Part shown: in pieces, positions 22,391 through 62,168 of the stretch
Layout: each line of letters opens with the position of its first letter
Position numbering within the stretch: position 1 is the first letter of the stretch
Source: Sipunculus nudus
Lineage: Eukaryota; Annelida; Sipuncula; Golfingiida; Sipunculidae
Length of the DNA stretch: 64,000 nt
Reading direction: 5' to 3'
NCBI GenBank assembly: GCA_026874595.1
Contig: CM049320.1
Coordinates: 15,730,488-15,794,487, forward strand
The notes under the pieces: generated by a model
The model's input: only the letters and a program-made list of their open reading frames with translations
The model's database searches: none
Told to the model about the DNA's origin: nothing
Made by a program: the position numbers and the translations under genes

Positions 22391-23590
22391 GGCTGCAACG
22401 TCTAAAGCACCTATCACACCGGGAAAGCGAATGAAAAGCGGATCAATAGCTTATATCCGTTTTTCTGTCGCTTTCCTTTTCATTTTCTAAGACATGCTAT
22501 ACAAAGTATCATTTTAATAAAATATAATAATCAAGAATTAACCACAAACCGGGTAATCTACTTTATTGCTGACCCCTCATACTACCACGTATTATTTTAA
22601 CTTCGCCACCAGCTAGGACTTTCAATTTATAGCCGTATACGGCTGCCGACATGTACACTGGTTTCACAGGACTGCCAGAAAAATTACAACCCCGTATATT
22701 TTTTTGTGTGTAAATGTTAAAAAAAAGTAATTGAAAGCTAAAATGTAATAACTTAATTATGATCGATTTGTATAACGTTAAAGGCCGGGGTAATTATTTC
22801 TATTTGTTTTTGGTGTGAAAAACTAGCTCACTTTTATTTGATTTTCAGTGCCAGTTATCAGCTTGATCATAATAAAAAAAAATAAATAAATTTACAAAGA
22901 CAGTTAAAAAGAAATACAATTTAAAAAGTCTGTTCTATGCTTGTTTTGATCATAGGCGTTTGTATGCAATCATTATAGATTTCGGTTGAATTGTCGCTTT
23001 TCTAGGTCATTTCCTTAAAAGAATTACTTATCTCACATTTTCCTAGCGTCTTTATTATTTTTTTAATATTTGAGATAGGCAGGCAAGAAGCCCCCGTAAC
23101 CGTTCGTTGCCTTTGGTAATCGAGCGCTTGAAAGTGGCAGCAAAGCGACTGACTTTCGATATGACTCGATGATCGGCCCAACACTACTTTTCATTCCCCC
23201 GTATCGGTATTGGTTCGTTATTGTCTTTGATTAAAAACCGAACAGAAAGCGAATAAATATCGCATAGACCGAAGTATTAACCAAGCACCGCTTTTCTGGC
23301 GGTATTCCGTCCATATTTGTTCGCTTTTCGTTCACCCTTGTCGCTATTGGCTCGCTTTCAGTTATCCCGTGTCGCTGTTGGTTCGTTAATCATGCGCTTT
23401 TCATACGCCTATTTCGGTTTCCCTCGCTTTTTTTATATGTTTTTGTTCGCCGGCTTCTTTTTTCATGCACTTATAGTTCTTTTTCATGTCGTTATTGCAT
23501 CTTAATCATCCCAACACCATAAAATAATTTAAACTTTCGCTTTCCATGTCCGTTTTTATTTCGTAAAATAAAGTTTTCGGTTCGTTATAC
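22391..23590. other. region rich in TTCGCTTT / AAAGCGAA words
   Basis: Words such as AAAGCGAA and TTCGCTTT recur many times and are unusual in this AT-rich surrounding. The left edge (GCACCTATCACACCGGGAAA) and the right edge reverse-complemented (GCACATAAATCCCGTGTCG) show loose similarity, so this may be one decayed DNA transposon. The hAT 3' end at 23106-23186 sits inside it. Confidence 0.3.
23106..23186. mobile_element. hAT element 3' end, copy 2 of family in PSMC2 intron 1
   Basis: These 81 bases, ending CCCAACACTA, match the right end of the hAT element at 49866-49946 without gaps and with about nine in ten bases the same. No left end was found, so this is a fragment. Confidence 0.65.
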
Positions 23591-24728: not shown

Positions 24729-26938
24729 AACACACAGCCTGAGAAGATATCCATGATATCAGAAGGGGGCGGGACAAGGTGCGGGGCCCCTATATGCATA
24801 ACCTTTGGTCTGAATACTCGGTCTCTTGTCAAACACTCGTCATACAGAAAGCCAAATAATGTCTAAATACTCAAATGAATATGCACGACAAAAGCTGTTT
24901 ATTTGTCATAAAACAAGACGGACAGTTCACTGCCAGCAATGAACATAACTCGTCTTAAATTCTCAAAGTATAATGTTTGCAAGTATTTAATAATAGTGCT
25001 GGTGTATACTAGAACTCCATTACATACTTCCATGTGTGTTTTTGTTTGTTTTGTTGTATGTATGTGTGGAGAAATTAAAAATGCACATAATTTACATGTA
25101 ATGAACATAAGAGACATCAGACCACGTGACTACACTCTAAGGTGGCACGTGGGACAGACGCGTCACACTGTAACAATATATGTCAGCATATCAATATGTC
25201 TATACCAACAGCACACAATATAAAATAATACTTCACAAATAACAAACAACACGTGGTTGTCTTGTCTCAGCAGTATGGACCACATTTTAAAACTATATAT
25301 GTGTATATAATCATATAAAATCAATAAAAACATATCACAGTACAAACTTCTCAGCCTTCACAGATGACAGCGTATAGAGATACCATAACCAGTCACATGC
25401 AGTTATCTTGATGTTTTTAAATAATATTAGTATGTCTTAACTGTTATATTTTACATCCGATTCAGCATATAGCATGTACCATATATAATACCTTCATGGT
25501 AGGAAATATATAAACATCTTATATTTTTCATGCTATGCTATTTTTGTGTGTTAACTAAAGTTAATAAATTTTTAATCTTCACAATGTTGTTCAGTGAAGC
25601 AATCTGAGAACAGCTATTGCCCTACGTTGTTGTACAAGAATAACAAACGGAAATCACAAAAGAAAGAACATTTTGAGGCCCGAGTGTTTTTAAGTTATCA
25701 GCAGACCCATGTTGTGGAAATAAATTGTTTTCAGAACCTAAAGCGATATATATATATATGGTAGGAATTGGTTGTTAAATCATGTTTAATGATTGAAAGA
25801 AGAAAAACGACCATTGATCCATTATTAATCAATTATTTTATGTAACTTATCCATTACCCGGAAATATGCTGTATGGAATTAATCCTTAAATATTGACCCA
25901 GTAGAGTGAACATCTTGTACATGACGCTGAAAGGTCAAGGTCAGGACCAGGTCTTGTACACTTATTTGCTGCACAAGGTTCTGTTTTAATGTTTTTCATT
26001 ACTTTGTGTCCCGTCCATCTTATAGCTCTGACAAGATTAAATTATTTTTCTGGATAATACAAGTTTTTTGTATGTGGATGCATAATCTTTGTGACCGATT
26101 ATGCAAAAATGTAACCAATTTAATCAATTATCAAAGAAAACGAAAATGACCAATCATTGACATATTCAATTAATTAATAAGCACACCACTATAAATACAT
26201 ATATATTTATAAACCATATATTGGACCTTTCCAGCTGCTCATTACCCGCATAACTATGATTCTAAATTGTGTCAGTTATGCTGGCTTTTACAGCTGGTTT
26301 TGAACCCCTATGTCCAGTGTTCACTATAATAAATTAAATGTCCAAAGGCCACTAACAGCTGTCAATAATGGTGGCATAAAATGCACCATAAATATATAAA
26401 TAGGATTTTTAGTAGTTTCTTGTTAATGACTGTTATTCAAGCTGTTCAGCTGGTTTTTAACTGAATGTAATAATCAACTGATCAGAGCATCTCAATATTG
26501 GTTTTGTGCAATGGGAAGTTTAAATTAAAATGTAATATTAAAGATTATTACTCTGAACCAAACACCAATTATTTTCTAAAAACAAGCCTATGATTAACAA
26601 AATAAGAATAATTACTTTTTTAAATAAAATTATGGTTATTTTGGATATGGAAGATGGTGGAACTGGACAGTATTAACTTTGGATGATAAAACAGTTATTT
26701 TAGACAGTGATAACTCTGGAATGTGGTGTTAAATAATATGAGAAAGTAAAAATAAATAAAATATCATGATAATGACACAATAAAACTTAATATTCAACAG
26801 ATAGGTTGTTCACTGAAACCTTCAGTAAAAAGAACACTAACAAACAATATCCTACATCATAAATCATAACAGACAGATGATATCATGAGATAATCAATAC
26901 AGTAAGTTAGGAAGTGCCAATTTTGTGATATCATCAAT
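24726..26938. other. 3' flank of the UBL-ARM gene
   Basis: AT-rich. It must hold the 3' untranslated region of the minus-strand gene, but no canonical AATAAA was found on that strand close to the stop. A nuclear-receptor-like extended half site TCAAGGTCA occurs at 25935-25943. No coding exon recognised. Confidence 0.4.
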
Positions 26939-27144
26939 TTAATCAAATGGCTTTTTGATATCACCAGACGACTCAGTGTTGCCAGACTGCAGGGATGTTC
27001 GAGATCCCAGCGAAATCTTTGATCCACCGTAGCCTCTCTTGAGCATGTTTGCTTTGGCCTGGTCGTCCATGCGGTTTAATTTTTCTGCAGTGGATAGCGT
27101 GGGAAGGCTGTTAAGACTCTCCTCTGAGTTCATTTCTTGAAGGG
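26939..27144 (-). CDS. UBL-ARM gene, terminal coding exon 15 (residues 623-690)
   Basis: LQEMNSEESLNSLPTLSTAE followed by a basic patch and a Ser/Gly-rich tail (GYGGSKISLGSRTSLQSG) ending KKPFD and a stop. The tail looks disordered and possibly phosphorylated. Confidence 0.85.
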
Positions 27145-30100
27145 CTGTAATGAAAAGCATCAACATTAATAAAACATCTCTGCATCATAGCTTATAGTAA
27201 AATATGTGTTATTAGTATTGTGGCATCAAAAATAAACAAATATTGATAAGGCCAAAAAAGGATGGTTCTCAGGCAGTTTTTTTTCAGAAATCAGTTTTTT
27301 ACCTTTTTTTGTATGTTTTGATAAAAATATCATATGATCAGGGAAAAATATGATAATAACATAATTTTTTTGCTAAACAGGTAAGGCACTTAAAAAAAAA
27401 GAAATCTTATTCAAATTGTATTAATTTATCTTCATGAAAGAAGAAAATCTACTTGAAAATTTTTGATGTAGGAGGTTAAAACTGATGTGAGCAGTGCCTG
27501 AGAACCATACTTTTTTTGCCTAATATGATAAATTTTCCATGAAGATGTTTTTTTTGTAGGAAAATGATTTATAAATCATACATGTACTTATACTGTTAGA
27601 ATAGGTATGGAAAAAAGTTAATAATAGATCTGTTTAACAGAGACTTGCAAATCAAAACTGAAAACATATTTGCTTGTACTTACTTGTTTTGATTATAATT
27701 TGTCCATTGATTTAATTAATGTCATATTCTGTCACGTTTTAAAAATCTGTACCATGTAATGCACCTTTAGCTGTTTTACAGATAGATAGATAGATAGAGT
27801 AATATAAATGAATATGCTTATGCATCTACAAACCTTGATCTGCCATATCCCAGGCTTCACGATCTGCTGCATGGTCACGGATGTACTTCAAAATGGATGC
27901 CAGGTTTAACTCTTCAGTCTTGTGCCTGTGTTAGAAAGACAAAACATGAATATATATAGACAGTCATAGACTGCACACCCTCACTCTGCTGCTACCTGGG
28001 GATTAAAGGGTGAACTACAATTTAATTTTGTTTTTTTAAAGCCAAGGATACAGGACCATCTTTGAGGACTGGAATTTTCCAGAAGAAATTTTCAAGAGAT
28101 TATGTGCTGTATGTTTTGGGTTACAGGTCCACACTGACAAACGCACAGATCAAACTGTAATACCCTTACCCCCCCCCCCCATTATATTCTAAATAATTCT
28201 TTTTTTTTTATATTGCTTTTCAAGTAATTCTTTGAATAAATTATTCTAAATACATTCTTCTTTATATTAATACTTTTGTATTCAATCTTGTGTATTTATC
28301 CTTTTATACTAATTCTTTTGTACTATTTCTTTTGTGTTCATTCTTAATTACCAACGCTTATGCATTCAATCTTATGTATTCATTCTTTTATACTGATGCT
28401 TTGGTGTTGGTTCTTTTGCACTGACCTATTTTGTATTCATCCCTTTGTATCTATTATTTTGTACTTTTTTAAATTATTTTCTTAAATTTAATCATTAACA
28501 TACCTCAGCAATTTATCCTCCATTCCACAAAATATGACCTTGATGATGACCTTCTGAAGCATTGGGTCCTTGGTACGAGCGTAGTTGGTCAGAGATTCTC
28601 GGACGTTAGGATGGTACAACAGATTCTCACATGTCTATAATGAAGTCAAATCAGTTAATAGAACGCTGTACTAAACCACTGGTCAGAAAATGAAGAAGTG
28701 AATTTGCATGTACAATAATGGTCTCAGCAATTTTATTTAAACCCTGTATTTACATGCAATCTGACACACCTCTAATTTTTCTAAGACAACATCATTTGAT
28801 TAAGGAAAAAGAATAATTAAATTGTTCTAAAGCTCCAGCAATTTATTTTCAATTTTGAGGGTATCTAACCTGTTCATTATTTTTTCCCCAACATTTGTCT
28901 TTTGATTTTGAACAATCAAGCCAGCATTCATCAGTGAAATGTGAAGAGTTGTATATCTCTGTAAACTTAGGCCCTTCAGTCAGAATACAGTATCCAGTTA
29001 TCATTTTTTAATATAATTATGAATTCATGAATAAAAATTTAAGACAAAATTATTAAAGTAGTAAATAATGAAAAGAGACCCGTGGGTAATGGTGCTCAGC
29101 TGAAATTGATTATGAGAATATTTGTATAAAATCCAAGCTGTCATGTTGACTGTGCACTACTGTGTAGTTTTATGGACTACACTGAAAGATGCAGAAACCT
29201 CTCATGATCAAATATTTGTAAAAGTATCAGTATTTTAATGTTTCTAACTTTAAACTGAACCTTTAAATTTTGATTCTATCAAACAAATTTATATTAAATT
29301 TTTAAAAACCAAAGAAACGTGGTACAGGAAAAAGAATAAAAATGTTTTGATATTGTCATGTGGGTTGATATAAGATTCCTATTACTGGTGGCTTAAAATT
29401 GTGTACCATTTAAAATTTCAAAATTTTCAAAAATGTTAAAATTTCATAAGAAAATTAATGTGAGTTTAGACATTTATATAACATCAGTACGAGCACTACA
29501 CCAGGTTTACAAAAATTTCTAATTATGAATTTAATAATAATTTCAAATGACTTTTGGGTTGATTTCATGGATCTAATATCAAATTTAAATGCCATCTGGG
29601 TTGATTTTTATTGTAGGGATTCTGCCAGGGATGCCGTCTTAAACAAGAGCCCCGCAAACGTACATAATACGCCCATCATGTATCTGGTGACCTCTGACCT
29701 CATTAAATGTGCGTGAATTCTGATGAAGGTAATTCAGGTGAGAAACTCTATTGGTAAATATGTATAATGAGTTTCATGAAAATCCATAGGATATTTGGAA
29801 AGTCACAGAGAGGTGATATATCTGAGGTAATGATGATTACTCACATCTCTGTTCTCAGCGTAGTACAGCAGGATCTTGGCTGCCAGCAGGAACAGCTTGT
29901 CATCAACAGTCCTCATGGGCAGCTCCAGCAGCAGTTCTAACAGCTCCTCCTGAAAGTAACACAGTTAAATCTCAGATAATACAGGTAAACTAAGGTAATA
30001 TAGGTAAACTCTGGCAACACAGGCGAAACTCTGATAACATAGGTTAACTGGAACAATACAGGTTAACTAAGGTAATATACGCAAACTCTGGCAATACAGG

Positions 30101-33100
30101 TGAAACCTGGTATACCTATGTAACATGTAAAGATTACAGTATCCAGATAAACTGGGCTTCAGATGTTGTAACCAGGGTAATATAGATGACTGTGCTGGTA
30201 TCTCCTGAACCTTCTGGTTATACAGGTTAAAACACAGGTAGGAAGAACAGGTGCATAATTAGGAACTACAGGTAAATGAATGTAAATTCAGACCCTTCAG
30301 GTTACAAAATGGCAAATACAGGTTTGAAAGATAAAAACATATAATGTTTCTTAAATCATGGACATCTTCTTATTTAAACAAAAGATTTATGTATATTCCA
30401 AGGTATCAAAGTAATATCAGGTATAAGTAGGTACATTATGTCATTGTCCTGGTAAGATCACATGATGGTGGCATTTTGTAAAACACAGTAGCATTATATA
30501 CACTCATGTAATACAGACAACTATCCAGTTATGTTCTCAATTAAAAGCAAGTGAATGAGAAATTTGTCCGTGCAGCAGGTGAATAAATCAGGAGGTATTA
30601 ATTATTGCAGATTATCTAGGTGATACTGGGAAGAATACATCTCTATTCATGAATGAACCTGGGTGAAAACATGATTTAAATAAAATTCATTTTTAAAGGT
30701 ACAACATGAAAAAAATTGTATTCAAATTGGAAATATTAAAAAACTAGATGTGTCGGAACAACACGAATGCCCCCGCCTTGGGCAAATTAGAAACATTTGT
30801 AAAATTTGGAAAATTTTTTAAGTTCAGGAGGTGTCGTATGGTCAAAAGTAGGTCAACAAGGGCAAAATGCAAACTCGATTTGTAACAGGTCATTATCAAG
30901 CAACACACCAAAAATCATGCCAGTATATGCAGGCACTGTGAAAAAAAGTCCATACATGTGCATTTTCCATAAAAATTTCTGTTTTTCATGAAATTTTCTA
31001 TGTTTAGGATCCGTAAAACAATCAAAAGTGAGTCAACCAGGATGAAACGCAAATTGATCTGTAACTGTCATTATCTGCCCACACAAAAAAAATCAGGGTG
31101 GTATCTGCAGGCATTGAGGAAAAAAAGTCAGTACATATGCATTTGTTATGAAAATTTATATTTTTCATGAAACTTTCTATGTTCAGGAGCAGTCAAATGG
31201 TCAAAAGTAGGTCAACTGAGACAAAACAAGAACTCGATCTGTAACTGGTCATTATCTGCCTACACACCAAAAATCAGGCCCATATCTGCAGGCATTGCGA
31301 AAAAAAGTCCATACATGTGCACCTTTTTTATGAAATTTTCTATGTTAGAGCACCGTCAAACGGTCAAAAATAGGTCAACTGGGACAAAACGTGTACTCCA
31401 TCTGTAACTGGTCAATATCTGCCGACACACCAAAATTCAGGCCAATATCTGCAGGCATTGAGAAAAAACGTCTACATGTGTATTTGTCATGAAATTTTAT
31501 ATTTTTCATGAAATTTTCTATGTTCAGGAGCCGTAAAACGGTCAAAAGTAAGTCAACCGGGACGAAAGCGAACTCGATCTGTAACTGGTCTATATCTGTC
31601 CACACACCAAAAATCAGGCCAATATCTGCAGGCACTGAGAAAAAAAAAAACGTACATGTGTATTTGTCATGAAATTTCATATTTTTCATGAAATTTTCTA
31701 TGTTCAGGAGCCGTAAAACAGTCAAAAGTAGATCAACCAAGACGAAATGCGAACTCGATCTGTAACTGGTCTATATCTGCTCACACACCAAAAATCAGGC
31801 CAATATCTGCAGGCATTGCGAAAAAAAAGTCCGTACATGTGTATCTGTCATGAATATTTCTATTTTTCATGAAATTTTCTAAGTTTAGGAGCCGTAAAAC
31901 GGTCAAAAGTAGGTCAACCGGGACGAAACACGAACTCGATCTGTAACTGTTCTATATCTGCCCACACACCAAAAATCAGGCCAATATCTGCAGGCATTGC
32001 GAAAAAAAGTCCGTACAACTGTTTCATTTCGGAATGACGGAAGGACAGAATGACGGACATGGGTAAAATTATATGCCCCGGCCACTTTGTGGCGGGGGCA
32101 TAAAAACATGAGCATACAATACTCAGCTTTTTCAATAATGAATGGGGAGGTATAATTCATCTGCATGATATGATAATCCTAATGCCTCAAATTATATTTG
32201 CATATCATTTGGAGACACCATTTTCTTTTAATCCTTTTTACAAAAAGTCTCACCTGAGCACAGATCATCTCAGAGCTCTCGATGGCCAACAGTTCCAGTG
32301 TTTGCAGTGCGAATCTCTGCGTGTCAGGGTCGGAGGACTTGCACAGGGATATCAAAGCCTTGGCTAAAAAGAGAAGTAACAAATATATGCACAGGTTTTG
32401 ATTTCCTCATACAATGAAAGAATACTAAATTTCATGAATGATAAAGAGGCAGTCTTTTGTTTTGTATTTCAACAACTAGATTACCTACAATTTTAACTTG
32501 TGACTTGTGACATCCATGTTTCAGTGTGTACGCAAAATGGCAGCCCCCATGGGCAGTTTTGATAAACTTGGAGAAATAAACCAGTCAGGGTTTGATAAGC
32601 ATACAGGGACCAAGCATGACAGTACTACAGGGTCAGCATCCAGGTGAGAGTTTGATGGCCAGGGGACATGTATTGGCAGAGTTTAGAAGGGAATAACGCT
32701 TTTTTGGACCATACAAAAATATTTTCAAATATGGTAAGATTCACTTTAGAATGTAATGGCCTTGGTCATGGTTACTGTGTTTGATGTAAGGCAATGAGAC
32801 AGTATCTACACTGCCACCTACCTCCATGCCTTTGAACTATTGCCTGGCATTCTTGAATACAGGGGTTCAGGAATTCAGCAGCTCTTTACACCTGCTGCAT
32901 GATTTATTAACATGCAAATTTTTAGGTTCATGTACTTATGGTTGAATCAACCATTGCTGTCTTTTATTACCTCCACCAAGAAGGTTATGTATTCGTCAAT
33001 GTCTGATTGTTGGTTTGTTTGTCAGTCAGCAGGATTAGCAGACACTCCTGCACAGATTTCCACCAAAAAGAGTAAACATGGGCTTGGAAAGATCTGATTT

Positions 33101-36100
33101 AATTTTTGTGAAGACACTAAAGAGACAAATCCAGTATGATTGCTTTGTCTTGGCAGAGGTAAGTGTTTACTGAGTGCCATTCAAGTCTGATGCACTTTTG
33201 GTGTTTATAAGATTAAGGATAACTAAAAGATGCACAATTTACAGTATTAAAGAAACGTGTTGCATAAGTTGAAAGCAGAATCAGAATGGCAAGTATGGGT
33301 CAGGACACATATTAAAAGAAAGCCTACTTACACAAATTATTATCAATATCAATACGAGACATTTTAGTTAATAATCTTACGACAGCAATTAAACATACTA
33401 AAATATGCTAGAAGGCTGACATTTTGTTCTATAATAACACTAAAAAAGACCCCCCTCACTTACAAAAATATACATTGGTAAACTACCTCATTCCTGCCTT
33501 ATTATATTATAGTTCTCTTTATTTCTGTTGGATTTACCTGGTTTGTTCCTGAATGTCATCTGTGCACGGATGTCAGAGTTGAATGCAAGCTCCAAGAAGA
33601 CTCCAGCAATCACACGCTGTACGGAGATTGTGCCGTGCTCAGCTGCGTGAATCAGATCATCCAGCCTACATACAATATATGTTTATTATCAAAATGGTAA
33701 AACAATTACTGTAAAGTTCTGTGTACAAGTCAGAAAATTTGTTACCCAATATCAAAACAATTAATGTAAAGTTCTGTGTACAAGTCAGAAAATTTGTTAC
33801 CCAATATTAAAACAATTACTGTAAAGTTCTGTGTACAAGTCAGAAAATTTGTTACCGAATATCAAAACAATTACTGTAAAGTTCTGTGTACAAGTTGGCA
33901 AAATTTGTTCCCAAATATCATGGTCTAAAATTATATCCTACTTATAATACACATGCCTAAGAATTTTGCCTTGATTTGCTAGTGAATAAAGACAGACCAG
34001 TCTGACAAATTATATATTCACAGTAAGATTAAGTACATATATACTATTCACATATTTACTATTAAATTATTTGAATAAATTTGAGCATGTTTATTCTCTC
34101 AATATGTTCATTATCCACATGTTTGAGTGACAACATAAACAACAATATCTGAGCTTCTTAAATGATTTTATACGTATTTATATGATTTCCAATGATTTTG
34201 CTGTTAATTAAGTGACCGTTCATTCTGGTACATTATTTATAATCTTACATCTTTAAAAATATATTTCACATTCATACATGAACACAATAATTTTGCTTGG
34301 TCAAATGCATTGTTATTTTTTCAAATATTACCGGTTTTTTATTACCACAAAGAGTGTGGCCCTACGTAATCAGACCAATGAGGTTTAAAATGTATAGTAA
34401 TACCTCCCCTTATGACCACTTCAGTTAAGCAACCACCTCAAAATTACAACCACTTGTTCATTGTCAAATACTTTATTTGCTCTTTATTAGATCTCACTCA
34501 GATGACCATCTCGAAAAAATGCAACCTCTTTAACAAGGTCCTGTTGGCGGTCATAATTTTCAGGTTTTACTGTATATATGATTAAAATTCTCACCCGTGA
34601 TGTGCCACCACTGGTCCCTTGTTTTCTTCCGAGTCTGATACAATGTAGGAGATGGCCATTGCTGCCTCGTACATGAGCCGCTGGCTGCGGGAGTGGAGGA
34701 CGGCTGTCAGGGTCCTCATACCACCCATCGCCACAAACTCATCCTGCAAGTAACGCCCAAGTCATATTAAATAGCATGAACATCTGGATAAAATGTTGAT
34801 GAGCATAATCATCACTACTTCAGACTGCCTAGTACACACAGAAAAACTATGACAAATGCAGGAATAGGAATATATGATAGAGTAGGACTTAGGTAGGAAA
34901 ACAGAAGGAAAATTAGGATTGAAACTACACAAAACAATATTGCTAATGCTCAATCTTGATATATAAATATGATAAAAAAGTGATACGATGAAAACATGTT
35001 CAAACAATTTTAAGATACAATGCCTTGAGTGAGTAGGAACTCTTGCTCTGTATTATACAAGTGTTTGGTGCTCCAGCAATATTTACCAACAATAGCATAA
35101 ATACACTATCAGAGAAATTCTCAACATTAAATAAACTGCATGTCATGAAGAAGAACATTAAAAATTGAAAAGTTGGTATTTTAAAAAAAAAAAGAAATAC
35201 CAGGAAAATGTGATTGAGACAAAAAAGTAGAAGTGAGATTGCTAGATGGCTTGCCACTTTAATGCTATAGATCCATTAATTTAGATAAAGCAATATAACA
35301 CCAATATGAGAACTTCAGTTAACTACTATTTTTTGTTAAACCCTGATTTTCTTCCCTTTAACGGTTATTAATTATTCTATTACCTTTAGATGTAGAAGTA
35401 ACTTGACTAAAATCTGGTTTTTGAGCTCTTTAATTAGACATTTAAACTAGGAGTGTATGCATCAGATAATTTGGGTTTATCAGGCTGCTTAATTAGTATG
35501 TTGACTGTTACCTGTATAGATGGAACTGTCAGCAGCTCAGCTAGCGCTTCTACAGCGTGCTCTTGTGTTGCTTCGTCACTGGACAGTGTCATTCTCAGCA
35601 ACACATCCAGCCTGGAGGAAAATAAAAATGATAACATTAAAGTAGGACTGTAAGGATACACGTTGCACCAATACATCACCCTACAAATCAGATATTGTAT
35701 TAATATTGTTACATGAATGAGACCAGATCACTCGATTGAAAGCAACATTCAACATTTTAATAATTATTTCCAAGTGCCATACTAGACATATCCAGTGGAA
35801 CATATTACCAAAACAAGTATGGCGGCATATGATAGATTGATTTTTTTTAAATACTTATATATATCTTGACAGATGAAAAATGATAATGTGTGATAATGTG
35901 TGTTGTCTGTCAAATAGTATGACAACTTTGAATGTGTCTACTTTGTGATGCAAGTTGTATAAACCAGCATGTTAATTCTTTACAATGAAATTTTCTGTTA
36001 TTCTTTTTTTTAGGCAAAAAAAAAACAAAACATGGAACAGTTTCTTACCCGCCCTCGGCTACAATCCTGAACTTGTTATCATCCCCTGTAGCCGCCAGTG

Positions 36101-39100
36101 TGGCCAGTTCAAATGCAGCCACTCGTTTCTCCTTCATGCGCCCATGTTTAGCCGCTTTCATCACATCCTCGATGTCACGAGACTGCACCAGGTGTCGCTC
36201 AATGTAGTCACCGTACTGAAAGAGGAACAATCAATCAGGTGTCACTCAGTGTTGTCCCAGAAATGATAGGGGTGGGGTGGGAATGATACTTCATCAATGT
36301 TGTCTCTATTTCAGAAAAAAATATTTAATTATCACAAAATCAAGCACTGGTCTTCCCATCTACCTACAGAAAATAAGGACCACATATTGGCCAATGACTA
36401 GGCAGAATTTTTTAGCATTCCTATGTTCCATAATCAATAATACTTATTGTCTCTGTTGACCAAATATACAATCTTAACAGATTTCTGGTTCATTTTGCTT
36501 TTAGGTATCTCAATCAGGAAAATATTATGTTTTCCTTTAATTTGTTGGTTTAATCCTTCAGCAATTCAGCAAAGGTTTATGAACAGATTTTGATTAAAAT
36601 TTTATGGTCAGATTTTCGAGGTAATCTGGATCACCATTATATATTTTGAAGGATTCTATCCCATGGTTACATGCAGCTATTTCTTTCTTGATGGGAAAAC
36701 CACTCCATTCATAGATATAAGGGCCAGCATTAATTGAGAACTCACCCCTGTTACTGAAATATGACATTGATGTACAAAAATGTAAGTTTGATAATGAAGG
36801 TCTGGGCAGGGGTGTCAGGTTGTTGTATATAAATTAAGGTTTCCTTTTATTCTAATTTTTTTTATTTCTGTCAAGTCAGGCTTTGTCGATAGTTTTTTCC
36901 TACATGCATATATTGGTTGTCTCTGTATTTTCCACACAGACAGACAGAGTATTGTCTGGTGTTTATATATCACTGATGAAAGCATCCTTACCTCAATTTT
37001 CATGTTCCACAGTAACACCCAGGCAATGATACTAGAGATGAAAAGACAGAGAGCCTGCAGACAGAAAAACACCCCCGAGAAGACGACCTGGTGGGAGCAG
37101 TCGTCCACGAACATCCAGTCCTTACAGCCATGGTTCTGTAATAGAGAGAAATACATGTACCATCTAGTGTCAACCCATATGACTTACCGCTGGGTTTTTG
37201 TAATGAGAGAAATACATGTACCAACTACAAGCCATAATACTTGGGCCAAAAAAAAAATAAAAAGTTTGGTTCTCAGGTACTGCCCACGTAAATTTTTACC
37301 CCCCACATCAAACATTTTTATTTTGATTTTCAACTTTTATTTAATTTAATTTTGACAAGATTTCCTTTGCTATGTAGTGCTTTTATCTGTTGTGCAAAAA
37401 AAAACTGTTATTTTCACGCTTTTCCCTGATCATATGGCATTTTTATCGAAATATACAAAATAGGTAAAAAATAAAATACCTCCCGCCCGCAGTGATTTCT
37501 GAAAAAAAGTGCCTGAGAACCATACCTTTTTATTTTTTTGGCCTTACAGCTGTGGTTCTGCAATAGAGAGAAATAAAAGTAACACCTGGTGTCAAGCCAA
37601 AAGACCATGTTTTTACACCTGTGGCAATGTCACTAAAACATATGCACAAGGATAACACAAGGAAATACAAATTAACCTGCATTCTGACTGATTTCCTGAA
37701 GAAACAAATATAGTTATGGGTTGTCCTTTGATCATCTTTGAATAACCAACATAATCCTCATGTGATTGTCCCTGTTTAAAACCATTTTATTGAAATTGTT
37801 CTAAACAGCATTTGACCTATAAAAACTTGAGATTTCCCTCTTTCTTCCTCACCTTAAAGATGCATGTTCAAATGGACCATACAATGAAGCTGGTTACCAA
37901 TAGTTCTAGGAATGGCAATAATTCTTCTCTTTTAGACGATCCTTTATTTTTTCTTTAGCACCTCCAAGACATCATTTTTGCTCTGTTTTGTTAATCTCTT
38001 TTACAGGGTTGCAAAACTTTCAGCAGATCAACATTTCATTACTTTTTCATGTATGTTAACAATAATTTATGAACTTTTTCCCACAACTTTGATAAGATAC
38101 TGTCATATACAAAACAGGCAATTAAGATCATCAACAATATTTTGCATATACAGGATATCTTTGTATATACTAAAAGAACTAAGATATTAAAATTACAGCT
38201 AGGATTTTTTCTGATTTTTAATGAACCACATAGTCAACTCTCTTCATTCAATTAAGCATGGGTTTACTTTATAATTGGTCGTGAAACAGCTGGTGTAGCA
38301 CATAAAACATTGTTACTTACTGTGATCTTGATCCATTCCTGTGCTGCAAAGTACAGCGACACACCCATGTTGATCAGCGACAGTATGCCGTAGACAATGC
38401 AGAAGTGAAACTTGCTACAGAGACAAGAAACAGAAAAATTAATACAGTTACACACTGAGAGTTCATACTGTATTAGTGATGAGGAAATAAGAAAATCAGT
38501 ACTGATGTTTTTGTATTTTCTTCTTTTTTTTATTTGTGTGTTTCACTGGTCATAAATTTCTTGGGGCCTAACAATAATTGTGGACTTAAGAATGGAAACA
38601 CATATTAATAAATGATTCATAAGTTTTCACTTACAAATTACAAAAAAAACTACAACAAAAAACTCTAACATCAATTCCAAAAATTGCATGAAAGCCATAT
38701 TATGTTGATGACGGATGAGCAATGTGTACAAACTAATGCATTTTCAAACATCCAAAGTTTTTCTCTACTGAATAGTCCTTTGAAAATTAACTCTTTTACA
38801 ATGTAGATATGTTAACCTGCTACCAGCTCTTAACATCTAAAAGTAAAATGAAAGGTATGATGGCTGTATAACTTAAATCTTGTTTCTAAAGACTAATTAC
38901 TTACTGTTGATGTATCTTAAAGCTTCATTACTTACTAAATGCTGTGTTTTCCGATGAAGCCTCCTGTGCGTGTAAATGTCGGACAGTAGTATACACCGAT
39001 TAAGAAGATGAGGAAGGTCCAGATGCCGGAGTACCAGTAGGTCGTTAGGAACGATAAACATGCTCCCATAAAGTGAAGATACAGCAGTCCCTGCAAGACA

Positions 39101-42100
39101 CCACAAATCACACAGATCAATCACAGTTAAAGATGTTCCACCTGTTCAATGTTAAAATACCCTTAAAGTATGCTATTCACCTACGAATCAGTAGAATTTA
39201 TTTACTTTCTGGCTTTCTCTTTGTACATATTAATGAACTGTAGAAAAAAAACACCTGTTAAGAAAAGTTCTTATAATGCCTCTGTGTCAGATGTATGAGC
39301 TTGTACACCTACATGCTGTTACTACACATGGTTGGTGCTCAAATGTCGACCAACTGAAAAACTGTGCAACCTTTATAGTGGTTGGTAGCATATTTGCGGA
39401 AGGTAAAGGCTACTGGCTGCAACACCCCCTTTGCAAAATTCTGGTTCATCTAATGAATGTGTTTGGATAATGTTAGCAGGACACCCATGTTATAAACGGG
39501 TGGATATAAACAAAACAAACAGCCTGTGTGCTGTAGGATTAGTATTTTCTGGCCGATTCAAAAAGGTTCAAAGATTTATCTTTAGTTTACATATCTATGT
39601 CAAATATGAGAATAAGCCCCATTAAAGCTATATCTGTGGCCATTTGTTGCATGGAAGGACTGCATAATGCAAGATAAAATCATTATGCTGACATGGTGAA
39701 CATCAGTAGGTGGCAGCTCAAAGTTGCTGAAAAATAATTTGTACCAAAATTTGAAGCTAAAGATTGGGGGTCGTCTTATACACATGGTCGTCTTATACCC
39801 ATGTAAATACGATAATCGTGTTGCACTCACCCTAAAGTCAAAAATGAGTCGTTCTCGCTGCTTGAAGATGCTGATTTCTTTCAGGAGTGCCTCCTTCACG
39901 TCTTCACTTTGACCTGGGCCGAGGTCAGGGTTACTGTGTTCACTCAGTGACCTAAGGTCAACCACACTCTACAAGCAATAACAATGATATCCTAAGTTTT
40001 ATGTACCATTCCTGAACAAACTGAAATTATAACTATTTAAAATATGGTAACCCTTACAATAATTCTGCTAAAATAAAATTTTCTATGATGATCTCAGAAT
40101 TGAAGTGATTTATTTTACCTCATATGAATCATACTGTACAAATATCAGGATAAAATAATTTTAACTAACTACATTTCATAATTTAGACAGTGTCTTGTAA
40201 TGTTAAGGTATGCTTATGAAAAATTACTCTCTCAATAGAAAAAGACACTCATTTAGTCAACTAATGACAGTCATGACTTGTCCACAAACAAAGAGAACAT
40301 ATTGATATAATTGCAGAAGTCAAACATGGTTCCCAGCATCCCATGAAAACAAACCCTGAAATTAACCGATGACTTTTCAGAATTCTTATAATGATTTTAT
40401 TGGGAAAATTTCCAAATCAGCAGCAACTTCTGAAGTTCAGGTGATCATCCAGTGGATTTGCTGTTTAAACATGAGACAAAATATACACAATGACCAAGGT
40501 CTTTTGGAATAATCAAATTCCAGGACTTTTCAGTGGTTAGCTGCATTTTTCTCAAATTCCCTGACTGGAAAATGGAAACTTTTTTTCCACAGTTTTCATT
40601 GATTCTCAGGACGACTAGGAAATCTGTATACATGTGATCTGTTACAAAAGTATCTACAATATATGAGTCTTCCAGATAAGGTGACAGTGATCAAAAGATT
40701 CACTGCTTGATATTAAAGAAACATAATACTCACATCAGCTCTTTTGGACAGAGGCACCATCTTAATAATGGAGTTGTCAACAATTCCATAATCTTCAATG
40801 GCGTAAGCATCCCTCAGGTACTGTCCCTTGTAGCGCAAACGAAACTGGTGATCTTGTCTTCCGAGTTCAAAGAGCACATGCAGCAGCTGTGCTCTTACCC
40901 GTGCAATATTTTCAAAGGACTGGACACGAACGACAAAGGTCCGGTACTGTGGAGGAGAAAGAATAAGTGGTGTGTCGATTAATCAATGTTTGGTTGTTTT
41001 CTTTCAAAACCGTTTAAATTTATATCAATTTATCAATTTATTTATTCAATTAAAAACTATTATGTAAACATATGCACAGAATCTAATCCTGTCAGAGATA
41101 TACAAACACAAAGTAATGTACAGAATCAAAACGGAACTTTGTGCAGCCAACAATGGCCTGACGGCAAGTCAACCTTTGATGCGGGTGAATTGATGGTTTG
41201 GCCATTTACTGGGCTCAGTATTTTTGGTACTAGTATGCAGCAGAGTTCAAGGTAATATAGAAAGTACATAAAAAATTGATTAATGATGGATCACTTTTCT
41301 TTTTATTATTCAGTCATTGATTATGATTCTTTAAACAATTTCTACCACTAGTAAGACTGATGACTAGAATGATAAATTTAAACTTGAGAAACAGTTAAAA
41401 AAAATGGGTGTTACTGTACCTACTGGTACACAGTCCGTATTGCATTATACTGCAATATACTGCAATATGTAGTAGTATATTACGATATATATGTATTGCA
41501 ATATTTTCATAGAAATCAGTGGGTTTTCTGGTAAACTTACTGGGAAGGACATCTGATAATATGGTCTATGGAGCCTATTTGAACATTAGCTATCATATGA
41601 CTTGAGGAGTGTCTGCAGACATGGTAGCAGTTAACATTTGTTAACAGTCTGCTTCACAACTCGCACCAAAAGATGATAAAACTTATACAGTTGATAAAAT
41701 ACTGGACCTGTTGAGGAAAATAATTTTTATTTTTCAACTGCAGAAGAAGTTGTATATACATAACATGTCCAAAAATTTTACAGGTCAGAAAGGATTCTCT
41801 ATAATTTAAAACATTCTGGTAGACACAGAATGTTTTTGTGGACATCATTTTTTTAAAGGTATATATTGCATAATATTCCCTTAATAAATCTTGAAATGCA
41901 TTGCACTAGTTGTACAGATGGCAAATTAAACCATCCTACACTGAGCTTACCAGTAAGCCTTCTTTCATTCACTAATAAAGGTTGTGGCAGTAAGAATTAA
42001 CCAAACTACCTGTATAAGACACTTTAAAAAAAAAACTTAAAAATGCCTAATCAATATATTCTTCATTCTATACTGCAGAGTAGTTATGTAATAAAATAAA

Positions 42101-42643
42101 ATATAATGGCACTAAGGTATGATTATATTTAAAATATTATAAGCTATATTTAAACTAAAGAATAATATATGATAAAGGTTCCATATTAAGTTATTGCAAT
42201 ATTATTATCAGCTTGTTCAGTTTTTACCAACCATTTATCTTGCTGTGAAGATAAAAAATAACCTGCTATGATAAAAATTCACATATCTTTTAATTACAAT
42301 TAACTACAATGTATACGATATAAATTTTATAAAGGAGAAAAATACCTGTTGCTTAAATTAAAAATGCTTGGCCCAGTGCCAAACTTTGCAATCTGGTCTG
42401 GTACTTGGGGTTGAAAATAGTTATAAATGTCAACTCGTAAAAGTGCGACCCTAAATTATGAAATAATAATCAAGCAAATTGTGAAGAATGTAAAATATTT
42501 ACCGGGAAGGCTTTACTTTCTACGTAGAGGAGCATTTTGTCGTTCTTCCCCTCACTCCGAAAGTTGTTTATCTTGCTACCATGGTCGATGACGGTGTTTA
42601 TGTACAGACCGGTCACGTCGAAAGAAACGGGACACTTGCTCAT
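26939..42643 (-). CDS. ubiquitin-like, four-helix membrane, armadillo-repeat protein (690 aa, 15 exons)
   Basis: Fifteen exons with GT-AG borders join in frame without an internal stop: 42643-42503, 40946-40734, 39968-39831, 39090-38936, 38414-38321, 37135-36992, 36215-36049, 35611-35512, 34743-34595, 33665-33538, 32363-32254, 29949-29845, 28634-28504, 27925-27834, 27144-26939. Residues about 37-114 look like a ubiquitin-like fold (RLRYKGQYLRD, then DNSIIKMVPL). Hydrophobic helices lie near 166-184, 187-201, 220-239 and 264-290. The 3-4 loop holds C251 and C260, and basic residues follow helix 2. With the N-terminus inside, the armadillo-type helices (about 313-620) would also be cytosolic. 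The tail is Ser/Gly-rich. The start is the first ATG of the frame. I do not recognise the family; HERP-like ERAD proteins share only UBL plus membrane helices. Role unknown. Confidence 0.85.
27249..27524. mobile_element. MITE family C, copy 1 (intron 14)
   Basis: The left end AAGGCCAAAAAAGGATGGTTCTCAGG... and the right end, reverse-complemented (AGGCAAAAAAAGTATGGTTC...), form inverted termini. Other copies are at 37241 and 47818. Confidence 0.65.
27780..27798. repeat. (GATA)n microsatellite
   Basis: Four to five GATA units. Confidence 0.8.
27834..27925 (-). CDS. UBL-ARM gene, coding exon 14 (residues 592-623)
   Basis: Last helical segment, LASILKYIRDHAADREAWDM. The donor is the less common GTTTGT. 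Confidence 0.8.
28190..28460. repeat. degenerate ATTCTTTTGTA-type repeat
   Basis: The word ATTCTTTTGTAT and close variants recur about every 17-20 bases. It lies in the intron directly downstream of exon 13. Confidence 0.45.
28504..28634 (-). CDS. UBL-ARM gene, coding exon 13 (residues 549-592)
   Basis: Helical repeat continues: NLLYHPNVRESLTNYARTKD then LQKVIIKVIFCGME. Confidence 0.85.
29074..29103. repeat. short dispersed motif, copy 1 (partner 63,111)
   Basis: AGAGACCCGTGGGTAATGGT followed by GCTCAGCTGA resembles 63111-63143. Such GACCCGTGGGT...GCTCA phrases look like one terminus of an invertebrate repeat; the other end was not fixed. Confidence 0.35.
29845..29949 (-). CDS. UBL-ARM gene, coding exon 12 (residues 514-548)
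   Basis: 35 codons, phase 0-0. A Leu/Glu-rich helix (EELLELLLELP) and KLFLLAAKILLYYAENRD. Confidence 0.85.
29964..30305. repeat. minisatellite, ~20-bp unit, beside exon 12
   Basis: ATACAGGTAAACTCTGGCA-like units repeat at least seven times and decay to the right. The array begins about 15 bases from the exon 12 acceptor. Confidence 0.7.
30743..32104. mobile_element. pearl-like / non-autonomous Helitron-like element with seven core repeats
   Basis: Seven copies of a ~180-bp core (marker phrase CTCGATCTGTAACTGGTC at about 30874, 31051, 31232, 31394, 31572, 31754 and 31935) are flanked on the left by ATGCCCCCGCC (30767). On the right are ACGG-type short repeats (32028-32059) and a strong hairpin (32072-32102, arms TATGCCCCGGCCAC / GTGGCGGGGGCATA). 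Core tandem repeats plus an ACGG tail are the layout I recall for bivalve pearl elements. No coding capacity; the open frames here (31375-31740, 31903-32166) are read-through of the repeats. It sits in intron 11. Confidence 0.6.
32254..32363 (-). CDS. UBL-ARM gene, coding exon 11 (residues 477-513)
   Basis: KALISLCKSSDPDTQRFALQ then TLELLAIESSE, another armadillo repeat. GTGAGA donor. Confidence 0.85.
32503..32715 (+). mobile_element. dispersed repeat B, copy 2 (intron 10)
   Basis: Aligned with 9908-10130: TGTGACATCC start, AAAATGGCAGCCCCCATGGG and CAGCATCCAGG shared. It carries a 36-codon frame from an ATG equivalent to that of copy 1. Confidence 0.5.
33538..33665 (-). CDS. UBL-ARM gene, coding exon 10 (residues 434-477)
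   Basis: LDDLIHAAEHGTISVQRVIA then GVFLELAFNSD. The upstream intron is occupied next to the acceptor by a 55-bp tandem repeat. Confidence 0.85.
33697..33912. repeat. minisatellite, 55-bp unit, four copies
   Basis: GTAAAGTTCTGTGTACAAGT occurs at 33711, 33766, 33821 and 33876, an exact 55-base period with few differences. It lies about 30 bases from the exon 10 acceptor. Confidence 0.9.
34393..34574. mobile_element. 182-bp MITE family D, copy 1 (intron 9)
   Basis: Inverted termini (TATAGTAATACCTCCCCTTA / TACAGTAAAACCTGAAAATT) and repeated GACCACT / CAACCACT words inside. It aligns end to end with 60474-60655. The CAGTnAACCTC-type end and GACCAC words recall pogo/Tigger termini. It ends about 20 bases from the exon 9 donor. 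Confidence 0.7.
34595..34743 (-). CDS. UBL-ARM gene, coding exon 9 (residues 385-434)
   Basis: Starts DEFVAMGGMRTLTAVL, the classic armadillo 'gly-gly, then helix' transition, and continues YEAAMAISYIVSDSEENK. Confidence 0.85.
35512..35611 (-). CDS. UBL-ARM gene, coding exon 8 (residues 351-384)
   Basis: Armadillo helices: LDVLLRMTLSSDEATQEHAV then EALAELLTVP. CTCCAG acceptor, GTAACA donor. Confidence 0.85.
36049..36215 (-). CDS. UBL-ARM gene, coding exon 7 (residues 296-351), first armadillo helices
   Basis: Charged juxtamembrane start (YGDYIERHLV), then EKRVAAFELATLAATGDDNK, a typical armadillo helix-loop. Confidence 0.85.
36992..37135 (-). CDS. UBL-ARM gene, coding exon 6 (residues 248-295), helix 4
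   Basis: Begins NHGCKDWMFVDDC, two cysteines placed in the predicted luminal loop, then a long hydrophobic helix. Its acceptor and first codons are duplicated upstream in the intron (see 37120-37605). Confidence 0.85.
37120..37605 (-). repeat. duplicated exon-6 splice acceptor, split by a MITE
   Basis: The acceptor and first codons of exon 6 (37120-37183) have a second copy at 37542-37605 and a partial third at about 37190-37240. The second copy reads as TTGCAG followed by codons for N-H-S-C-K, mirroring N-H-G-C-K of the true exon, and then runs into the MITE at 37241-37549. It could act as a decoy acceptor. Confidence 0.6.
37241..37549. mobile_element. MITE family C, copy 2 (intron 5)
   Basis: The inverted ends TTTGGTTCTCAGGTACTG (left) and TATGGTTCTCAGGCACTT (right, reverse-complemented) lie inside GGCCAAAAAAA termini. 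Lies within the exon-6 acceptor duplication. Confidence 0.65.
38321..38414 (-). CDS. UBL-ARM gene, coding exon 5 (residues 216-247), helix 3
   Basis: Completes Tyr216, then FCIVYGILSLINMGVSLYFA as the third membrane helix. CTGTAG acceptor and GTAAGT donor. Confidence 0.85.
38936..39090 (-). CDS. UBL-ARM gene, coding exon 4 (residues 165-216), helices 1-2
   Basis: Two hydrophobic stretches separated by a very short Ser-Gly turn, followed by a basic segment (TRTGGFIGKH). Ends in phase 2 at a GTAAGT donor. Confidence 0.85.
39831..39968 (-). CDS. UBL-ARM gene, coding exon 3 (residues 119-164), linker
   Basis: 46 codons, phase 0-0. A polar, charged linker with a Lys/Glu-rich amphipathic stretch (EDVKEALLKEISIFKQRER) leading to the membrane region. 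Confidence 0.85.
40734..40946 (-). CDS. UBL-ARM gene, coding exon 2 (residues 48-118), UBL core
   Basis: 71 codons, phase 0 at both ends, CACAG acceptor and GTGAGT donor. A beta-strand-like start, an amphipathic helix (RVRAQLLHVLFELGR), then RLRYKGQYLRD and DNSIIKMVPL follow the ubiquitin-like order. Confidence 0.85.
42503..42643 (-). CDS. UBL-ARM gene, coding exon 1 (residues 1-47)
   Basis: Starts MSKCPVSFDV and ends VESKAFP in phase 0 before a GTAAAT donor. The start is the first ATG; the longer upstream frame relies on a TTG. Its last ten residues open the ubiquitin-like fold. Confidence 0.8.
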
Positions 42644-43527: not shown

Positions 43528-45180
43528 AAGTCAACGCACTATAGGTCTATACTTGATCTGTAAGAAGACCTAAAATAATTAAGTCAACGCACTATAGGCT
43601 TATACTTGAACTTGATCTGCAAGAAGACATTAAATAATTAAGTCAACGCACTATAGGCTTATACTTGAACTTGATCTGTAAGAAGACATTAAATAATTTA
43701 AGTCAACGCACTAAAGGCTTATACTTGAACTTGATCTGTAAGAAGACATTAAATAATTTAAGTCAACGCACTATAGGCTTATACTTGAACTTGATCTGTA
43801 AGAAGACATTAAATAATTTAAGTCAATGCACTAAAGGCTTATACTTGAACTTGATCTATAAGATTACATTAAATAATTTAAGTCAACGCACTATAGGCCT
43901 ATACTAGAACTTGATCTATAAGAAGAAATTAAATAATTTAAGTCAACGCACTATATAGGCTTATACTTGAACTTGATCTATAAGAAGACATTAAGAAGAC
44001 ATTAAATAATTAATTCAACACAGTATATAGGCTAGAACTTGATGGATTAGAAGATAAGATATCAATCAATATAAGTCAACTCACAAGGCCTGTACTTGAA
44101 CGATATCGATAAAAAAATTACATTATATAAGTCAACGCATTAGAACTATAAGTAGTGTTACCACAAGTGTTACAAAATGAAGGGGGATCTATATAATTAA
44201 TTAAAGGTAGCGTGACTCAAATGCAGATACCCCTCCATACATACAACAGAAACTATACAAACTATAAGACGGAGAGGTAATTGCAATGACCACCAGAATT
44301 TATTAAGACAGATCTATGTAAAATACAACTAGAGATACAATGAACTAACTTTGATTACATAAAATATATATACTGACCTATTGAGGACCTACACCAAGCT
44401 GTCAGTGATACTCTGGTCCTTTATTCCTAACTTCTGTAAAACAAAAGCTAAGACCAGACCTGAGGCTCGCCGTGATTCAGGGAGACAGGGCTTAGCACGT
44501 CTGCTAAGCTCCGTGTCCCCAAGCCGAGAGAGAGGGCAAGGCTGAAACAGTCACCAGGTTAACCCGGGTCATGTTTCAGTCCTGCATCACCAGCTCTGTG
44601 GTCAATCCAGAGCAGCATCTATGGCATCATTGTCAAGGGAACCTCCCCTGGTTGCCATGACGCCATAGGGTGTTCCCCCGGTAATACCAGGGGTAGGGCA
44701 TTCGTGTAACACTAGAATTTGATTCGATAAGAAGATATTAAATAACATAGGACAACGCACTATAGGTGTATAAAAGAACTTGAGTTGTGAAAGAGCATCA
44801 AATAATATAAGTCCACATCAGGCCTATACTAGAAGTTGATCTGTGAGAAGGCATCAAATAATATAAGTAAAACCACTATCGTCCAATATATATTAGAACT
44901 TTATCTAATGGAAGACATAAAATATTACAAGTCAACGCACTATAGGCCTATATATACTAGAACTTTATCTAATGGAAGACATCAAATAATATAGGTCAAA
45001 CCACTATAGGCCTATATATGCTAGAACTTGATCTATATAAGAAAACGTCAAATATTATAAGTCAAATCACTATAGGCCTATGTATACTATAACTTGATCT
45101 ATATATAAGAAGACATCAAATAATACAACTCCGCATCAGTCCTATACCAGGACATAATTGTTAAGGAGACATCAATTAAA
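43528..45180. repeat. ~60-bp satellite-like tandem array, interrupted
   Basis: The unit is built on AAGTCAACGCACTATAGGC followed by TTATACTTGAACTTGATCT and AAGAAGACATTAAATAA. The left block (43528 to about 44140) has about ten well-kept units. The right block (about 44713-45180) has more diverged, length-variable units. Because the period is near 60 bases, one frame stays open (43665-43907) as a 20-residue repeat; it is not a gene. Confidence 0.85.
44155..44712. mobile_element. insertion within the satellite array
   Basis: About 560 bases of unrelated, GC-richer DNA split the array. The ends are inverted: TAGTGTTACCACAAGTG on the left and TAGTGTTACACGAATGC for the right end reverse-complemented, sharing a perfect 9-base terminus. 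The right flank starts in TAGAATTTGA-like array sequence and the left flank carries TTAGAACT, compatible with but not proving a target duplication. No reading frame. Confidence 0.5.

Positions 45181-47257: not shown

Positions 47258-62168
<14,911 letters not shown>

Follow-up and report, generated by a model that had tools for sequence, protein, structure and literature searches.

Does the locus between 42643 and 26939 on the minus strand of the 64-kb stretch of Sipunculus nudus DNA analysed here (the window) hold one gene, whose product joins a ubiquitin-like domain (UBL), membrane helices and armadillo (ARM) repeats in a single chain, and what might such a protein do at a membrane? The question was approached from the gene model, then from each domain, and finally from a comparison with known proteins.

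Gene model and copy number

The initial annotation had joined 15 exons without a stop into 690 residues. This reading was rebuilt exactly by splicing the DNA from 42643 to 26939 on the minus strand, yielding 690 amino acids and a stop codon. All 14 introns are of the GT-AG type and the intron phases of the model are compatible. Exon 5 (38414-38321) is needed to complete the codon split after exon 4 and thus provides a strict check of the frame. An in-frame stop lies 18 codons upstream of the start ATG. The exons were as follows:

Exon 1: 42503..42643, minus strand; residues 1-47, N-terminal end with the first strand of the UBL, beginning with the ATG at 42643; recovered in the genome search
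Exon 2: 40734..40946, minus strand; residues 48-118, remainder of the UBL
Exon 3: 39831..39968, minus strand; residues 119-164, charged linker
Exon 4: 38936..39090, minus strand; residues 165-216, helices 1 and 2 as a hydrophobic hairpin, then a basic loop
Exon 5: 38321..38414, minus strand; residues 216-247, helix 3
Exon 6: 36992..37135, minus strand; residues 248-295, C251/C260 loop and helix 4
Exon 7: 36049..36215, minus strand; residues 296-351, first ARM repeat
Exon 8: 35512..35611, minus strand; residues 351-384, second ARM repeat
Exon 9: 34595..34743, minus strand; residues 385-434, third ARM repeat
Exon 10: 33538..33665, minus strand; residues 434-477, ARM-like
Exon 11: 32254..32363, minus strand; residues 477-513, ARM-like
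Exon 12: 29845..29949, minus strand; residues 514-548, probably ARM-like, degenerate
Exon 13: 28504..28634, minus strand; residues 549-592, probably ARM-like, degenerate
Exon 14: 27834..27925, minus strand; residues 592-623, presumably the last helical unit
Exon 15: 26939..27144, minus strand; residues 623-690 and stop, serine-rich tail

The GC content of the exons was 0.44-0.56, compared to 0.32 in the introns. In a leave-one-out codon score the chosen frame was the best for 14 of the 15 exons, the exception being exon 1, and stops were present in 28 of the 30 off-frames. For 13 random AG-bounded stretches with the lengths of the internal exons, the probability that none is interrupted in the frame needed was about 10^-14, a value that is indicative only, the exons having been picked by eye. 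A search of the whole genome (1.43 Gb, 153 contigs) recovered all 15 exons, each of them at this single locus. Among the best candidates scored were 18 matches, 15 of which were the exons themselves; no convincing paralogue was found elsewhere, since the strongest of these candidates outside the gene had an E-value of 0.9. Exon 2, which carries most of the UBL, gave one match at E <= 0.001 as a query against the genome. The gene looks like a real, single-copy gene.

The model could also have merged two adjacent genes, one for a UBL/membrane protein (exons 1-6) and one for an ARM protein (exons 7-15). Candidate poly-A signals are located in the intron that separates exons 6 and 7 (AATAAA at 36866 and 36851; ATTAAA at 36554, 36541 and 36329), and downstream of the exon 15 stop no AATAAA occurs before 24903, although there are other signals such as ATTAAA at 26124. 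Such signals are, however, frequent in this AT-rich DNA (31 AATAAA on the same strand between 24.5 and 43.5 kb), and the junction of exons 6 and 7 is in phase 0 with proper splice sites. Upstream of exon 7 no ATG is met before the preceding in-frame stop, thus a separate ARM gene would require its own 5' exon or a start within exon 7. A merger is highly improbable; one gene is favoured by the compatible phases together with the collinearity of the exons at a single place.

The only other gene recognised in the window was PSMC2/Rpt1, the 26S proteasome regulatory subunit 7, an ATPase: its exons lie on the plus strand at 55069-60285, and the joined pieces matched a PDB entry with an E-value of 2e-109. 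Its proximity is taken as coincidence. Four other candidate stretches had no Pfam family; elsewhere in the window the screen consisted of open frames and the codon score. Several repeats were observed. Exons 11 and 12 are separated by an intron that contains a tandem array with a 181-base unit in 6.6 copies (30841-32017), and four copies of a 55-base unit with 94% matches lie just before the acceptor of exon 10 (33699-33920). Two minisatellites that are related to each other, one with a 60-base and the other with a 64-base unit, lie upstream of the gene (43551-43994 and 44825-45125). A dispersed repeat occurs at 23096-23187 and 49856-49947, 87% alike and in direct orientation.

The ubiquitin-like domain

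The proposed UBL was recovered as a match to Pfam PF00240 (ubiquitin) at residues 46-111, with an E-value of 2.9e-6 and 27.4 bits against a curated cut-off of 25.4. Matches to polyubiquitin chains were weak, about 8-10 bits per copy, and BLASTP gave no alignment of the UBL with ubiquitin. Exon 2 folded alone (residues 48-118, without strand 1) yielded a low-confidence model (pLDDT 64, pTM 0.47) with the element order E-H-E-E-H-E, the order expected from a ubiquitin fold minus strand 1. Compared to the PDB, this model without its first strand had no match with E <= 0.001 among 500; HPr was best with an E-value of 0.018, and ubiquitin and NEDD8 ranked lower. The sequence evidence for the identity as a UBL is good. 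The C-terminal Gly-Gly is absent at the end of the UBL, where the domain runs on into the linker; hence the UBL would be a built-in domain rather than a conjugated tag.

The Ile44 patch is described in passages of PMC5264512 as an interaction surface of ubiquitin and of the Ubl of Parkin. In the PDB sequence alignment F46, R85, K109 and V111 correspond to L8, I44, H68 and V70 of ubiquitin. Two positions of the canonical patch, F46 and V111, stay hydrophobic, while the central Ile and His are replaced by basic residues. The absence of Gly-Gly together with Arg85 at the Ile44 position and Lys109 at that of His68 makes a canonical docking less likely. For comparison, 14 other UBL regions of the genome, polyubiquitin-type copies and fragments included, were aligned and inspected by eye at the Ile44 place; ten further aligned loci (L001, L023, L024, L028 and six others) were left out of the count. 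The residues were Ile in 4, Leu in 3, Val in 2, Met in 2 and Phe, Tyr and Lys in 1 region each, so that 13 of the 14 were hydrophobic or aromatic and one, locus L041 with Lys, was basic. By this alignment an Arg at the Ile44 place appears unusual, though a basic residue there is not unique. Two of the regions with Ile are L034 and L036, which look ubiquilin-like and Parkin-like, respectively.

The ubiquitin-family search of the genome listed 48 matches at an E-value of 0.001; the UBL exon of this gene, searched alone, was not among them. On contig C11 (G000:C11:59644191-59645993; L021, L022, L025, L026, L030, L031) eight of the listed ubiquitin-family matches fall within a single 634-residue open frame, the later ones being progressively less ubiquitin-like. 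Two ordinary polyubiquitin arrays are present elsewhere in the genome, on C8 and C10.

The membrane block and its topology

Hydropathy windows above 1.2 cover only residues 159-205, 214-241 and 255-296. A second, insertion-type hydrophobicity scale, with weights of our own choice, gave four windows, the first of them marginal. The stretch 159-205 is long enough for two helices, and the three hydrophobic stretches are best read as four helices with a weak helix 1. The four helices of the initial annotation were retained in part: the hydrophobic stretches and the four windows agree with them, but the first helix is marginal. The two cysteines, C251 and C260, were located as claimed, in loop 3. 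With loop borders chosen by hand, the count of basic and acidic residues is 3 and 0 for loop 2 but 2 and 4 for loop 3; the flanks of the membrane block are near charge balance (6/6 and 8/7). Under the positive-inside rule, such loop charges predict that loop 3 is luminal, whereas loop 2 and the ARM end are cytosolic. The UBL would also be cytosolic if the first stretch is a hairpin, that is, if the marginal helix 1 is real or forms a re-entrant hairpin. With three rather than four helices, the UBL and the ARM domain would lie on opposite sides of the membrane. The proposal that both domains are cytosolic and the cysteine loop is luminal thus fits the loop charges, but hinges on helix 1. An N-glycosylation sequon is absent from the entire 690-residue protein. 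The 131-residue membrane block matched no Pfam family at E <= 10, and a PDB sequence search with a 172-residue stretch gave two matches only, both to CDC14 phosphatase, with a best E-value of 0.94.

The armadillo region

Residues 340-377 matched Pfam PF00514 (Arm) with an E-value of 2.7e-9 and 37.2 bits, above the curated cut-off of 20.6. The match was kept when residues 296-434 were searched alone (31.6 bits), while residues 434-690 alone had no Pfam match above the curated cut-off. Sequence matches in the PDB were to designed armadillo proteins (309-440), UNC-45 (343-514) and Vac8 (344-508). An armadillo-type similarity is, at the level of sequence, well supported up to about residue 514; beyond, the armadillo character would be an extrapolation. 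Of the about 300 ARM residues originally claimed, the part up to 508-514 stood with the Pfam and PDB matches, whereas the remainder is a presumption. Eight repeats were divided by hand, and the exon borders roughly follow this division, each exon holding approximately a single repeat. A fold of exon 7 by itself gave two helices with low confidence (pLDDT 60). Sub-cut-off Pfam matches, among them DUF2721, ARMC5, V-ATPase H and CoV NSP8, were dismissed as generic or due to chance, and an NCBIfam search of the protein gave nothing above the cut-offs. The order UBL, membrane helices and ARM repeats is supported by the Pfam matches that flank the hydrophobic block.

A putative membrane scaffold

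The reading that we prefer, with about even confidence, is that of a polytopic membrane scaffold with both ends in the cytosol, in which the ARM repeats and a non-canonical UBL gather partners. Both termini would lie on the cytosolic side of an internal membrane. There, a client or partner protein would be held by the ARM solenoid and a second factor recruited by the UBL, so that the two may meet at the membrane, much as in UBL membrane proteins of the HERP type. The UBL would most likely use a dedicated, non-canonical partner, or pack against the ARM domain, rather than bind standard ubiquitin receptors. By analogy, HERP as portrayed in passages of PMC8924303 may serve as the nearest working model for the mechanism. 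It is doubtful, and proposed here tentatively, that the protein stands for an unnamed class of membrane adaptors, with a non-canonical UBL (Arg at the Ile44 place) joined to an armadillo solenoid by an integral anchor of four helices, forming a platform with its own UBL-reading partner.

A direct role in ubiquitin-dependent quality control, after the fashion of HERP and TMUB proteins, would have the UBL dock to the proteasome, p97 or a ubiquitin ligase via the canonical patch while the ARM repeats select substrates. HERP, too, has an N-terminal UBL ahead of its membrane helices, as stated in parts of PMC8924303. Such a docking is, however, at odds with a patch in which I44 is changed to Arg and H68 to Lys, in a genome where 13 of the 14 other UBL regions are hydrophobic or aromatic at this position, including L034 and L036 with Ile; we consider it rather unlikely. 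Improbable as well is a membrane-anchored armadillo tether for organelles or cargo in the sense of Vac8, with a minor or regulatory UBL. The alignment of Vac8 with residues 344-508 of the ARM part had an E-value of about 2e-8, but designed armadillo proteins outscored Vac8 over the same region and the match is therefore generic. Moreover, the anchor is integral here, unlike the lipid anchor of Vac8, and the Asn typical of peptide-binding ARM repeats is absent from the first three repeats, where the alignments have T, E and Y.

Comparison with known systems

In the open-access literature, by titles and the openings of abstracts, no protein with the UBL-membrane-ARM architecture was found; it is quite possible that the family is already catalogued, yet uncharacterised. 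Searches for homologues in prokaryotic genome contigs gave 18 and 53 pattern matches with none confirmed, and viral contigs and phages gave no match; both results are uninformative on animals. Among the known proteins, TMUB1/2 combine a UBL with membrane helices as here, but are not known to have an ARM domain. Vac8 is an ARM solenoid bound to the membrane by a lipid anchor and is not known to carry a UBL; it resembles the present protein in the ARM sequence match (344-508) and differs from it in the anchor, which is integral here. HERP, a partner in ER-associated degradation, has a UBL and a membrane segment and is not known to have a further large domain or ARM repeats. HERPUD1/2 differ from the protein described here, which has an ARM C-terminus, probably four helices and an Arg at the patch Ile. 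The likeness to HERPUD1 lies in the N-terminal UBL followed by a membrane segment, with both ends cytosolic in the account given in passages of PMC8924303. A review on the ARMC subfamily presents ARM repeats as a binding platform (PMC8666550); in its main text the terms 'ubiquitin-like' and 'transmembrane' had no occurrence. The present protein shares ARM repeats with this subfamily. Membrane proteins with a UBL are known, and so are armadillo scaffolds held at membranes. A chain with both would directly connect ubiquitin-type signalling to a protein-binding solenoid at the membrane and, if conserved, might be a candidate for a role in organelle contact or in the quality control of membrane proteins.
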